Source of the DNA: an uncultured Bacteroidales bacterium
GTDB lineage: Bacteria > Bacteroidota > Bacteroidia > Bacteroidales > UBA932
DNA: 33,749 nucleotides
Direction of reading: 5' to 3'
Assembly (NCBI GenBank): GCA_900318565.1
Contig: ONLD01000017.1
Span: 1 to 33,749 of the forward strand
How positions within the stretch are numbered: position 1 is the first letter of the stretch; each line of letters begins with the position of its first letter. Below, in pieces: positions 21,286-25,560 of the stretch. A program made the position numbers and the translations under genes. The notes under the pieces are model-generated. The model was not told where the DNA came from. It worked only from the letters and a program-made list of their open reading frames with translations, and did no database searches.

Positions 21286-21555
21286 ATGAGAAACAGGCAG
21301 GAATGGTTCAATGAGAAGATGGCGGCAGTATCTCCGGGAATTGTGTCCGAGGTGCAGTTGTCGGCCGATATCATTGCCCGCCTTGATGCCATCCTCAAAC
21401 AGAAGAACATGACGCAGAAGGACCTTGCCCGCAAGATGGGTCGGTCGGAAGCGGCCATATCGCGGTGGACTTCGGGTTTTCCCAACCTCACGCTGAAATC
21501 CATTGCCGAGATTTCCACCGCCCTTGGCGAACCCCTGATAAAGGTTACAGAATAA
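21286..21555 (+). CDS. XRE-type HTH protein, antitoxin-like
   Basis: An 89-residue protein with a helix-turn-helix at about residues 42-62 (MTQKDLARKMGRSEAAISRW) preceded by a helical N-terminus (SADIIARLDAILKQKN). The size and layout resemble HigA-type antitoxins and small phage-like repressors. No toxin gene lies immediately upstream or convincingly downstream, so it may be an orphan. It has its own promoter and sits at the edge of the repeat-rich block, consistent with acquired DNA. DNA binding is well supported; the target is unknown. Confidence 0.85.
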   Translation: MRNRQEWFNEKMAAVSPGIVSEVQLSADIIARLDAILKQKNMTQKDLARKMGRSEAAISRWTSGFPNLTLKSIAEISTALGEPLIKVTE

Positions 21556-21702
21556 ATGACTATATCCTTGTCATATTTCTTCGCTTCTAATGCTCTCCTC
21601 ACAATCAGGGATGGGTATAACCGTTTTTTAATCAACAGCTTACGTAACAACAGTCGCGACCTTCGAGAGAAGTGCCGCTGCTATTCGTGTGCCAGCAAGT
21701 AA
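21556..21702 (+). CDS. Possible 48-residue ORF directly after the HTH gene
   Basis: The ATG abuts the TAA of the HTH gene (21553-21555). The predicted peptide (MTISLSYFFASNALLTIRDG at the start, CRCYSCASK at the end) matches nothing I recognise. No ribosome-binding site other than possible re-initiation is visible. It could be a small partner of the HTH protein, or chance. Confidence 0.2.
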   Translation: MTISLSYFFASNALLTIRDGYNRFLINSLRNNSRDLREKCRCYSCASK

Positions 21703-21733
21703 ACAGATATTATTCAAACTAAGACATAATTAC

Positions 21734-21880
21734 ATGGAAATCAAGAACGACAAAACTCTTTACGAAGCGCCATCAACGATGGTGTTCGAGGTCAAGACCG
21801 AGGGCGTTATCTGCCAAAGCGGCGTAAATGCTAATCGCAATGGTTATGGTGCTGCGAACGAACTAACATGGGATGAATAA
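21734..21880 (+). CDS. Small peptide upstream of a fimbrillin-like lipoprotein
   Basis: A 48-residue acidic peptide (MEIKNDKTLYEAPSTMVFEV, then EGVICQSGVNANRNGYG and ELTWDE). It has no signal peptide. The pattern YE-P near the start, an I-C-S-G motif and a Trp-containing acidic end resembles short ORFs that often precede surface lipoprotein genes in Bacteroidales; their function is unknown. Its TAA is fused to the Shine-Dalgarno sequence of the next gene (TAAGGAGGA, 21878-21886), which indicates translational coupling. Confidence 0.7.
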   Translation: MEIKNDKTLYEAPSTMVFEVKTEGVICQSGVNANRNGYGAANELTWDE

Positions 21881-21893
21881 GGAGGAATGAGCA

Positions 21894-23189
21894 ATGAAAA
21901 AGACTTTTGCAATCATATTGGCAGCGGCCTCCTTGGCAGCCTGCGCGAGAGAAGATCTCTCTATTATTGTTGAAGAGCCCGAGGTTCAAACGTATACGAT
22001 GTCCGTTGTGGCCAATAAGGGAGAGAATCCGGATGACGACATAGCCACCCGCGCCCTGTCGCTCAGCGGTTCGACGCTCAATGCCACGTGGTCCCAGGGC
22101 GACGCGGTGGAGGTATGGACCAGTGACGGCACCACGACGAAGTACGGCACGCTGACTGCCGAGACCAGCGGCGCAAGCACGAAGCTGAAGGGCACGCTGT
22201 CGTCGCTGCCCAGCAATGGCCAGTCGCTGCTGCTGAAATATCTCAGCCCCGCCTACGCCACGCAGGACGGCACGCTGACAGGCTCGGAAACGAGCATCGA
22301 CCGCGTGTGCGACTATGCCACAGCCACGGTGACGGCTACCGTCGCGGGCAGCAACGTGACGGCCACGGATGCCTCGTTCGTGAACCAGCAGGCCATCGTG
22401 AAGTTCACGCTGAAGGACAAGGACGACGCATCGGCACTGAGCGTAAACAAACTCTTTGTCACCGTCGGCGGCACCACCTGCGAGGTCACGCCCGCCGCCG
22501 CCATGAGCGAACTCTACGTGGCCGTGCCCGCCGTCGCCAGTGGCCGCGTGACGCTGACGGCCCAGAAGACGAGCCTCGGGTTCACATTCTATTACGACTA
22601 TCTCAAGACGGGCGCGACCTTTGCACAGGGCCAGTACTACGCCATCAACGCCTCGCTGACTCTGGTGAAGAATATAAACGTGGCCACAACTGCCAGCCTG
22701 GGCCGCGTCGTCGCTGCCGACGGCATGATGTATGCATGCGTGGAGTCGGCAACAAACGCAGGCACCACCGCCATAGCCGTGATAACCGAACGGAACAGTT
22801 ATGCGTCCCTCTACGGAGCCATCGCTATCAGCGAGGAGAGCAGGGGGATGAATTGGTCCGATGCAAAAAGTGCCTGCGAGGGCAAGACTCCGAAACTTGA
22901 CGGTGCCAACTGGCGGTTTCCCACCGTTGATCAGTGGAAGTCCATGTGCGCGGCCAACGGGGGGAATGAGTACAATCACACCGGCCTGGACGCGCTCATC
23001 ACCAAAGCTGGCGGTTCACCATTGAGGACTGATTGGTTCTACTGGACGTCTTCGCCTGACGAGGCTAACAGTAACTATAAATACCACGTGTCGTTTTACG
23101 GAAATGGCAGTTTATATTTCCGTAATGGCCAAGATCAGTCCAACAAAGTGTATGTCCGTGCCTTCCTCTATTTTTTGGCAACTAATTGA
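21894..23189 (+). CDS. Fimbrillin-like lipoprotein with C-terminal Lcl/DUF1566-type domain
   Basis: A 431-residue lipoprotein with lipobox LAAC at Cys17. Residues about 30-270 are Ser/Thr/Ala-rich beta-type sequence (NATWSQGDAVEVWTSDG, YYDYLKTGATFAQGQYYAINASLTL) as in fimbrillin-family surface proteins. The C-terminus (about 285-431) has GMNWSDAKSACEG, NWRFPTVDQWKSMC and FYWTSSPDEANSNYKYHVSF, the layout of DUF1566/Lcl C-type-lectin-like domains. It is probably exposed on the outer membrane and involved in adhesion; that role is inference. A strong GGAGGA precedes the ATG. The insertion sequence follows the stop without damaging the gene. Confidence 0.8.
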   Translation: MKKTFAIILAAASLAACAREDLSIIVEEPEVQTYTMSVVANKGENPDDDIATRALSLSGSTLNATWSQGDAVEVWTSDGTTTKYGTLTAETSGASTKLKGTLSSLPSNGQSLLLKYLSPAYATQDGTLTGSETSIDRVCDYATATVTATVAGSNVTATDASFVNQQAIVKFTLKDKDDASALSVNKLFVTVGGTTCEVTPAAAMSELYVAVPAVASGRVTLTAQKTSLGFTFYYDYLKTGATFAQGQYYAINASLTLVKNINVATTASLGRVVAADGMMYACVESATNAGTTAIAVITERNSYASLYGAIAISEESRGMNWSDAKSACEGKTPKLDGANWRFPTVDQWKSMCAANGGNEYNHTGLDALITKAGGSPLRTDWFYWTSSPDEANSNYKYHVSFYGNGSLYFRNGQDQSNKVYVRAFLYFLATN

Positions 23190-23282
23190 ACGGTTAAAAC
23201 CCCGTCGCATAGCGTGTCCCGTGACTGCGCCGTGCCCATGATAGCCGATTTGGGTACGAATAGGAGCGCGATTGATAATAGC

Positions 23283-23310
23283 GCAAAAGCGGTCTTCGGG
23301 CCGCTTTTGC
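23283..23310. other. Hairpin upstream of the IS transposase genes
   Basis: A perfect 10-bp stem (GCAAAAGCGG / CCGCTTTTGC) around an 8-nt loop, 21 nt before the first ORF. No T-run follows on either strand. It may block read-through transcription or hide the start region of the transposase, as in other insertion sequences. Confidence 0.6.
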
Positions 23311-23331
23311 TGTTCATAAGCGATATACAAC

Positions 23332-23766
23332 ATGGACAAAGACACTTCACAACTTCAACTCTATCAGCACTTCCTTAGCTTCTTCCTGCCGGAGGGCATC
23401 CTGGACTTCTTCGAGCCGGTGTGGATGGAGACACAGTCCCTGGACTCCCGGGAGAGCAAGAAGGACATCCTATACGGTTCTTCCCTTCACATCTACCTGG
23501 ATGAACGGGACAATCGGTCCGAAGACATACAGGAATTGCGGCCAAACGGCTTCACGGAGGAGACGGTCATCACGGACTTCCCGGTCCGGGACAGGAAGGC
23601 TGTACTCCACGTTCGGCGGCGCCGATGGCTGACTCCGGAAGGGAAGAACGTAGTGCTGAACGTATATCCGCTGGCTGCATCCGGTACCCGTTACTGCGCC
23701 GAGTTCGCGGCTTTTTTAAAAGATAGTCTTGGATACAACGCCGGTGACGGCACGCTCCCTTGGTAA
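23332..23766 (+). CDS. ISAon1-type transposase, N-terminal ORF
   Basis: A 144-residue protein beginning MDKDTSQLQLYQHFLSFFLP with PEGILDFFEP, a FPVRDRKAVLHVRRRRWLTPEGK segment and CAEFAAFLKDSLGY near the end. This is the separate N-terminal region found with ISAon1-group transposases; it probably contributes DNA binding. Its last 38 nt overlap the downstream ORF, which is in the +1 frame. A TTTTTTAAAA run at 23712-23721 lies near the overlap, but a -1 slip there would not reach the second ORF. Confidence 0.85.
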   Translation: MDKDTSQLQLYQHFLSFFLPEGILDFFEPVWMETQSLDSRESKKDILYGSSLHIYLDERDNRSEDIQELRPNGFTEETVITDFPVRDRKAVLHVRRRRWLTPEGKNVVLNVYPLAASGTRYCAEFAAFLKDSLGYNAGDGTLPW

Positions 23767-24805
23767 GTTCTTTTTCACGGATGGAGACACACTGGAGCGC
23801 TGTTACAAGGACTCGTTGAGCGGGTTCCGGGAATGGGAGCAACTGGATCACGCCTCCGACTGGGCCCTGATGGAGGAGAACATCGGCGAGCATTTGAGCA
23901 TCGACGAGACCTCGTTGCAGGATGACCTGTTCACCTTCCTGTCCAACAAGGAGGGCCACTGCAAGAAAGGAACGATTGTGGCCGCCGTCCGCGGCACCAA
24001 GGCCCAGGATGTCGTGGCAGTCCTGCTCAAGATACCGGAAGAGCAGCGCCTGAAGGTCAAGGAAGTGACCATAGATCTGTCCGAGAGTATGGCCGATATT
24101 GTGATGCAGGCCTTCCCGAACGCGACCATTGTCCTGGACTGCTTCCACATCATGAGGCGCTGCAACGATGCCATTGAGGAGATGCGCCTGCGCTGCAAGC
24201 GGGAGGCCCAGGCCAAGGTCCGCAAAGAGAAAAGCGAGTTCAAGAAGCGCCAGAAGCGCAATGCGGCCCATCGCCGGTGGTATCGCAAGACGCATCCCAA
24301 GAAGTACAAGGGCAAGACCAGGGGCCGCAAGCCGGCCCGTAAAAACGAGAAGTTCAGGCCCACGGTGCTCAGCACGGGCGACACGCTGGTGGAACTGCTC
24401 ACCCGGTGTAGATGCGCACTTACACAAACGCCCGACAAGTGGAGTGAACGGACGAAGGAGCGGATGGACCTGCTCTTCCGCCTGTATCCCAAGATAAAGG
24501 AATCCTATGACATTGTAAACAAGCTAAGAGCCATCTTCAGGAGCACATCCCTTGACAGGGATGCCGCCCGCGAGAAGTTACATGGCTGGTACAAGGCCGT
24601 CAACCGCTGCACCATCCGCGAAATCAAATCGGCCCGCGACGCCATCAAATCCAGGGAGGACAATGTACTGAACTACTTCCTTGAGCGCTCCACCAACGCT
24701 TCCGCAGAGTCACTCAACTCCAAGATGAAAGGCTTCCGGGCTCAGCTGAGAGGGGTGTCCGATCTGCCGTTCTTCATGTTCAGGTTGTGCAGGATCTTTG
24801 GGTAG
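23729..24805 (+). CDS. ISAon1-type DDE transposase, catalytic ORF
   Basis: About 358 residues from a TTG at 23729; the frame is closed by TAA at 23717, so the start or frameshift must fall in 23720-23766. The acidic residues fit a DDE catalytic domain: D59 in SIDETS, D137 in IVLDCFH and Glu near 327 in NASAESLNSKMKGFR. A basic insertion (REAQAKVRKEKSEFKKRQKR to GKTRGRKPARKNEK) separates the second and third. The C-terminal FFMFRLCRIFG is complete, so the element may still be active. Stop-overlapped two-ORF order is normal for this group. Confidence 0.88.
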   Translation: MDTTPVTARSLGKFFFTDGDTLERCYKDSLSGFREWEQLDHASDWALMEENIGEHLSIDETSLQDDLFTFLSNKEGHCKKGTIVAAVRGTKAQDVVAVLLKIPEEQRLKVKEVTIDLSESMADIVMQAFPNATIVLDCFHIMRRCNDAIEEMRLRCKREAQAKVRKEKSEFKKRQKRNAAHRRWYRKTHPKKYKGKTRGRKPARKNEKFRPTVLSTGDTLVELLTRCRCALTQTPDKWSERTKERMDLLFRLYPKIKESYDIVNKLRAIFRSTSLDRDAAREKLHGWYKAVNRCTIREIKSARDAIKSREDNVLNYFLERSTNASAESLNSKMKGFRAQLRGVSDLPFFMFRLCRIFG

Positions 24806-24814
24806 TGGGACACG

Positions 24815-24976
24815 GAAGATTGCAGGTGAGCCCCGAAAAGCCCATTTTTAGGCCCGTGGTGCCCCCCACCCCAACGTTTATTGACTCCACGTCTTTACAA
24901 TATAGGTGGTAAACTAACGATACTTTTACTCCATTAACCATATTATCTTTTTCTGTAAATATACAATACGAATATT
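24815..24976. other. Intergenic stretch after the IS
   Basis: No gene. It changes from C-rich (a CCCCCCACCCC-type run near 24862) to strongly A/T-rich from about 24900, which probably marks the edge between IS-associated and resident DNA. Confidence 0.4.
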
Positions 24977-25006
24977 AAAAAAATAGAGAACCCTTTCGGA
25001 TTCTCT
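24977..25006 (-). terminator. Terminator of the candidate small RNA
   Basis: On the minus strand AGAGAA...TTCTCT pairing (24985-25006, with inner CC/GG pairs and one bulge) is followed by A then seven T residues (24983-24977). Confidence 0.75.
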
Positions 25007-25108
25007 CATAGAAAACAAGCTTGCTGTACCCCAAAAATACTGTTATTACCGCTTTGTACAAAAGGGAACCCTTTTGCGGACGCGCAAATCGCAGCCAAGC
25101 CGTATGTT
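24977..25108 (-). ncRNA. Candidate structured small RNA (about 132 nt)
   Basis: A transcription unit with a full promoter and an intrinsic terminator but no ORF with a start codon and a ribosome-binding site. The predicted RNA folds into an outer stem, GCTTG(G)CTG (25100-25092) with CAGCAAGC (25026-25019); an inner stem, CCGC (25079-25076) with GCGG (25052-25049); and within it a hairpin of AAAAGGG and CCCTTTT (25075-25060). The outer and inner stems are separated by unpaired stretches of about 12 and 22 nt, a rod with a central bubble that resembles 6S-type RNAs. The identity is not established; it could be a known Bacteroidales RNA family that I cannot name with confidence. Confidence 0.6.
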
Positions 25109-25114
25109 TCTTTG

Positions 25115-25146
25115 CAAATATACTATAAATACTCGAGTAATCCAAA
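25115..25146 (-). promoter_or_regulatory. Promoter of the candidate small RNA
   Basis: On the minus strand TTTG (25146-25143), 20 nt, TATATTTG (25122-25115); both boxes match the consensus. Confidence 0.75.
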
Positions 25147-25379
25147 ATAGTCTGGTATTTATAGTAAAACTGAAAAATGGTTCGTTCACAATATATCATA
25201 ATATGCATTCGAAACGGTCTTCAAAGATTGATTGATTATGGCGTAATCGATGGCAAATTAACCGATAGCAAAAGTGTTGTTTGTGCGCAACAATTTTTGT
25301 AAAAAATGCAGTTTACGCGCAACACTTCGTCTGGAAGACTGACGTAGCTGCTGATGTACGGTGGTAATACACTAACGGT
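25147..25379. other. A/T-rich intergenic stretch
   Basis: No gene that I can support. A short plus-strand reading (LIDYGVIDGKLTDSKSVV, ending about 25302) looks somewhat protein-like but has no start. AAGTGTTG and CAACACTT occur in inverted orientation about 40 nt apart (around 25267 and 25313). It may be debris of the gene whose end is at 25399-25560. Confidence 0.4.
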
Positions 25380-25410
25380 TTTGATTATGTCGGAATAACC
25401 ACTATCTTTG
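25380..25410 (+). promoter_or_regulatory. Promoter upstream of the pgeF operon
   Basis: TTTG (25380-25383), exactly 19 nt, TATCTTTG (25403-25410). TGTCGGAATA occurs three times around it, at 25388, 25411 and 25423: once between the boxes and twice just downstream, positions where a bound protein could control initiation. Confidence 0.8.
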
Positions 25411-25560
25411 TGTCGGAATAAATGTCGGAATACCAAGATAGCTGAGGGCCTTGATATGAGTGCCCGGCAGATAGAACGGATAATGGCCGATCTCAAAGCC
25501 AAGGGATTAATCAGGAGAGTCGGTGCAAATCGGAACGGATACTGGGAGGTGCAGGATTGA
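25399..25560 (+). pseudogene. Remnant of a winged-helix gene (AlbA/RecG-like C-terminal wHTH)
   Basis: The open frame reads TKIAEGLDMSARQIERIMAD then LKAKGLIRRVGANRNGYWEV and stops at 25558. This is the C-terminal winged helix typical of AlbA_2/RecG-like ATP-binding regulators, without the 300 or more preceding residues. The frame is closed upstream at 25396. An ATG at 25456 could still express a 34-residue peptide from the promoter at 25380, ending 2 nt before the pgeF start, so it may now act as a leader ORF. Confidence 0.6.

Follow-up and report, generated by a model that had tools for sequence, protein, structure and literature searches.

The window analysed here, a 33,749-nt stretch (contig ONLD01000017.1) from an uncultured Bacteroidales bacterium, carries on its minus strand an orphan unit that the initial annotation had proposed to be a structured small RNA gene, possibly 6S-like. 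This raises the question of whether the unit is a gene at all and, if so, whether it encodes a 6S RNA, another RNA or a short protein.

Promoter, terminator and reading frames

Both ends of the unit were found as first described: a consensus Bacteroidota promoter and an intrinsic terminator (Table 1), the promoter conforming to the housekeeping promoter consensus reported for Bacteroidota in PMC7366714. The motif TTTG-N19-21-TAnnTTTG is present in four copies in the window, against a mean of 0.225 per shuffled window, and only the copy at 25146-25115 has a terminator 60-220 nt downstream, a combination that none of 40 shuffles gave. A second exact promoter motif (25062-25032, minus strand) is located within the unit, 26 nt upstream of the terminator stem, and is a putative promoter by sequence match. 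The -33 element of the main promoter is flanked by a 12-bp perfect dyad, a possible operator; dyads of at least 11 bp with a spacer of up to 40 were contained in 11 of 1000 shuffles of 24833-25380.

Table 1. Predicted features of the minus-strand unit, in window coordinates.
Feature	Position	Strand	Basis
Bacteroidota-type promoter: -33 element TTTG (25146-25143), 20-nt spacer, -7 box TATATTTG (25122-25115)	25115..25146	-	sequence, motif scan, shuffles, consensus in PMC7366714
12-bp perfect dyad TACTATAAATAC (25121-25132) / GTATTTATAGTA (25155-25166)	25121..25166		repeat pair I1; shuffles
Predicted transcript, ~132 nt	24977..25110	-	sequence; start inferred from promoter spacing
Intrinsic terminator AGAGAATCC-GAAA-GGGTTCTCT (stem 25006-24985, 9 pairs, GAAA loop), then T run	24977..25006	-	central pair ensemble probability 0.999

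In a non-random sample of congener loci fetched for other purposes (377,296 bases, with some loci overlapping, and excluding own-genome loci and the non-genus loci L002, L003, L005, L068, L069, L071, L075, L076 and L147-L149), 13 of 66 distinct consensus promoters, each counted once, have a terminator 60-220 nt downstream, compared with 1294 of 50,400 random points (2.6%). A tRNA gene was found by ARAGORN directly behind ten of these 13 promoters, and the remaining three (L036, L079 and L080), which lack a tRNA, have the appearance of other small RNAs. In this genus, the combination of promoter and terminator marks RNA genes well, though not perfectly. Because the combination is absent from all 40 shuffles, and because the congener promoters that show it mostly precede tRNA genes, the unit is best read as a stable-RNA gene, and the proposal that an RNA gene lies beneath the short frames is well supported by these two signals.

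The ~132 nt behind the promoter hold no credible reading frame, in agreement with the first description; 57 of the 134 transcript positions are G or C, against 55% in the window. Start codons within the transcript are limited to one ATG, at 25009, and five TTG. Four of the frames, that of the ATG and those of three TTG codons, read through the terminator, while the other two TTG frames, of 30 and 13 codons, stop before it. Should the unit be a short protein gene, which we regard as very unlikely, the product would come either from the 30-codon TTG frame (25098-25006), open up to a TGA at the terminator edge, or from a listed 77-aa ORF (25208-24975) that is open over its whole length. By our estimate, however, 30 open codons are expected by chance about one time in four per frame, and the 77-aa ORF starts upstream of the promoter, at 25208, and has no Pfam match. 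Nor did this ORF have a relative in scans of genome and viral collections, which require eight identical residues, may have excluded its own genome and are a weak test for an RNA.

Predicted fold and search for homologues

The predicted transcript folds at -40.5 kcal/mol with its terminator (z -2.71; 1 of 200 shuffles as good), whereas the body without it (25011-25110) folds at -27.1 (z -1.01; 26 of 200 shuffles as good), so that the excess stability comes mostly from the terminator. The fold is weaker evidence than the promoter and terminator, and that of the body is not beyond chance. Three nested pairings had been described for this RNA: the complementary strings do exist, but the fold that they would form reaches only -28.5 kcal/mol with the terminator, against an optimum of -41.1 for the 136-nt stretch, which places it 12.6 kcal/mol above the predicted optimum. 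In this calculation the apical stem was scored as six pairs, since seven would leave a 2-nt loop. The inner CCGC/GCGG stem has a probability of ~0.01, and the 8-bp outer stem is divided into a GCUU/AAGC half at 0.96-0.99 and another half at 0.10-0.18.

Searches across relatives, congeners, family genomes, phages and plasmids (overlapping samples, from a genus larger than the sample) revealed only short pieces of the unit. By blastn (up to 13 candidates scored per genome), two of 60 other relatives gave matches of 28-35 nt that fall entirely in the promoter stretch, and in both (L002 and L003) the matched stretch stands before other genes, as judged by eye. Among 399 other congeners, with the best two candidates scored per genome, 29 matched, 27 of them only in stretches upstream of the unit: 17 in the promoter stretch of a Fic gene remnant and 11 in a stretch of operator-like repeats, one genome being matched in both. 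A further congener, G244, matches the terminator, and another, G070, gave a 27-nt match (25034-25060, minus strand; 93% alike), probably by chance, inside a frame in L035 that by eye resembles a MiaB-type protein. Three of 215 additional genomes of the family, many of them congeners, gave 28-35-nt matches (best three candidates scored per genome), which fall respectively on the promoter, upstream of it, and at and beyond the terminator end. With two or three candidates scored per genome, weak matches within the unit may be missed in these last two samples.

A covariance model (R1), built from the single sequence of the unit entered twice and scored on up to eight candidates per genome, found a full-length match in one of 400 congeners, the own genome. 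Eight of the 399 others matched at E up to 1 over spans of 55-99 nt, and the six inspected (L078-L082 and L084) carry terminator hairpins. Phages gave a single 37-nt match, annotated as a terminator (E 0.3), and plasmids gave none. The Rfam scan of the unit had no hit, the best sub-threshold family being SSRC38 (22.7 bits against 80), which overlaps the unit only at the terminator.

Several of these congener loci (L078-L081), and also L150-L159, contain a three-hairpin RNA of ~77 nt with its own promoter and terminator. Rfam gave no hit to it in any of the four loci scanned, and the L079 copy is arranged tail-to-tail with a frame resembling CdiA_C (23.1 bits in Pfam, short of the cut-off of 26.6). 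Of 217 congeners, 10, including three training genomes, score at least 54 bits with a model of this RNA built from L078-L081 (R3). The unit has the terminator core GAATCCGAAAGGGTTC and the promoter class in common with this RNA. Over its 3' part (25050-24976) the unit reaches 27.2 bits with the model, and the terminator hairpin alone 16.5 bits; three of the eight pairs of the second hairpin are broken, however, and the first hairpin has no loop letters. Since 19 other genomes of the 217 score 22-31 bits, we take the match of the unit as terminator background, and a distant kinship of its 3' part with the three-hairpin RNA is conceivable.

6S RNA in the genus

In length and in its long-hairpin outline the unit roughly resembles 6S RNA (RF00013) and 6S-Flavo (RF01685), and 6S RNAs are strongly divergent in sequence. 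As for a 6S closing stem, central bubble and apical stem, the strings are present, in a fold that lies 12.6 kcal/mol above the optimum, and the searches gave no homologues from which covariation could be read. We nevertheless consider it highly improbable that the unit is a 6S RNA or a second, divergent 6S-type regulator of RNA polymerase. Rfam gave no 6S match at the gathering threshold, and none up to E 10, in 24820-25300, and a better 6S candidate is found elsewhere in the same genome, on another contig (G000:C55:18782-18899; L118:1383-1500, minus strand).

In the genomes tested, this genus-wide candidate did not rise above the Rfam cut-offs: RF00013 had four weak matches and no genome of 61 above the cut-off, and RF01685 nine weak matches and none of 41, with the own genome among the misses of both. 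Likewise, no Rfam cut-off was reached in four candidate loci scanned (the own locus and those of G129, G016 and G013). With a model (R2) built from four same-genus RF01685 matches (L070, L072, L073 and L074), 144 of 151 congeners, the four training genomes among them, matched at E up to 0.1, each at a single place. The own match (43.8 bits, E 6.5e-6) is among the weakest, with only six lower, and so leans on its neighbourhood. All three same-genus RF00013 matches (G027, G006 and G022) coincide with places found by R2, an agreement independent of RF01685; the fourth, in G039, belongs to another genus.

A reading frame ends no more than 40 nt upstream of the candidate in all ten loci checked of the 144 (the own locus and three training genomes included), and the own frame is ZapA by Pfam (E 2.5e-8; of the ten, Pfam was run on this frame only), with most of the other nine looking alike. 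A position of ssrS behind zapA is described for beta- and gamma-proteobacteria (PMC7641849), and in Bacteroides 6S RNA and its pRNAs are reported as detected by dRNA-seq (PMC7366714). A genus-only alignment of the candidate was used because RNAalifold gave no structure on an order-wide one. It has 35 rows, some of which repeat a place exactly or almost so, and it was fitted to the model and is hence biased in its favour; both partners have changed in 10 of the 16 predicted pairs, and 7-11 rows break several of the pairs. On these sequence comparisons the genus candidates are well supported, though not proven, as 6S RNAs, and the ZapA gene indicates where 6S may be sought in these bacteria, whose candidate stays below the Rfam cut-offs where tested.

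Measured against this candidate, the unit differs. Within the unit the best minus-strand score of R2 was 3.5 bits with filters off; the genus-wide conservation expected of 6S is absent (full length in 1 of 400 genomes, against 144 of 151 for the candidate); and in place of zapA synteny the unit has as neighbours an ISL3 transposase, a Fic remnant and a Cu-oxidase_4 (laccase-type) gene. It has no covariance-model match to RF00013 or RF01685, and the 6S-like part of the first description is not upheld. A regulator of RNA polymerase that is not homologous to 6S is formally conceivable, with nothing in its favour beyond the outline.

Genomic surroundings and possible origin

We consider it probable, if by no great measure, that the unit is an independent gene for a small non-coding RNA, confined to the species or its nearest kin and possibly in decay. 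It shares with the orphan intergenic sRNAs of Bacteroides thetaiotaomicron described in PMC7366714 an intergenic position, a canonical sigma-ABfr promoter and its own intrinsic terminator, the canonical promoter and Rho-independent terminator being the marks of an intergenic sRNA of Bacteroidota. Those sRNAs have mapped starts and reads, whereas the unit is known from sequence alone. The same source gives 76% of B. thetaiotaomicron intergenic sRNA candidates as using the canonical promoter, and 27 of 49 high-confidence intergenic sRNAs as strain-specific, which makes a species-specific gene of this kind ordinary. The unit alone is accordingly of little weight, species-private sRNA genes being common in Bacteroidota.

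Beyond the solid points, namely the promoter, the terminator, the lack of a credible frame and of a homologue in the searches, and the failure of those 6S comparisons that gave a clear answer, we infer how such a gene would work. The housekeeping sigma factor would start transcription at ~25110 from the consensus promoter, possibly under the control of a regulator binding the 12-bp dyad, and transcription would stop at the 25006-24985 hairpin to give an RNA of ~132 nt made of a long imperfect hairpin and the terminator hairpin. If functional, this RNA would most likely act in trans by base pairing with mRNAs, by analogy with the orphan intergenic sRNAs of Bacteroides.

Against the gene reading stand the absence of conservation in the genomes searched and the fold of the body, and the surroundings raise a further doubt. 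The unit is flanked by a mobile element on one side and a broken Fic gene on the other, in a stretch (24833-25380) that has no match in G129, the genome with the best pgeF-type match (86% identical) among 200 genomes, of which 56 matched. The gene order in G129 is short-chain dehydrogenase, tRNA-Leu, Fic gene and pgeF. On the downstream side, 21286-24832 of the window is 97.7% identical to G087:C48 over 3551 bp and carries an HTH gene, a lipoprotein-like frame and an ISL3 transposase, an identity that suggests recent transfer. Most aligned copies put the right end of this IS at 24832, at a distance of 145 bp past the terminator, and a few carry it on to 24841. An inverted repeat (23074-23086 / 25153-25165) was considered as the ends of the element and was taken as chance, its left copy lying inside the lipoprotein frame. 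On the other side, the Fic remnant (25379-25560) consists of a promoter with repeated TGTCGGAATAA boxes (25381-25432) and a C-terminal end from 25433, the 850 bp between them being missing relative to G129.

Given this debris, which also includes orphaned operator-like repeats, the unit may be a relic without present function, whether transcribed or not: either a leader that carries a terminator and whose gene disappeared with the insertion of the mobile element downstream, or an RNA gene in decay. We hold this to be the less likely reading, but one to be taken seriously: the IS end is close, the adjoining Fic gene has kept just its promoter and its C-terminal end, and the genus offers a precedent in L084, where at 1540-1620 a short leader with a terminator is seen by eye between a promoter and a RimP-like frame as a possible attenuator. 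The string AAAGGGTTC, common to the apical hairpin and the terminator (repeat D5), could moreover permit an antiterminator. However, that fold (-22.4 against an optimum of -41.1) is 18.7 kcal/mol worse and was rejected, no gene start was recognised by eye among the frames between terminator and IS, and the promoter and terminator are both intact.

A more specific version of the sRNA gene reading, in which scrap from broken genes has recently been built into a species-private gene with its own promoter regulated through the 12-bp dyad, would amount to the birth of an sRNA gene; we regard it as an unlikely, tentative possibility. The operator-like inverted repeats, AAGTGTTG...CAACACTT, lie at 25265-25327 of the window, and by eye those in L025 adjoin an apparent ATPase gene.
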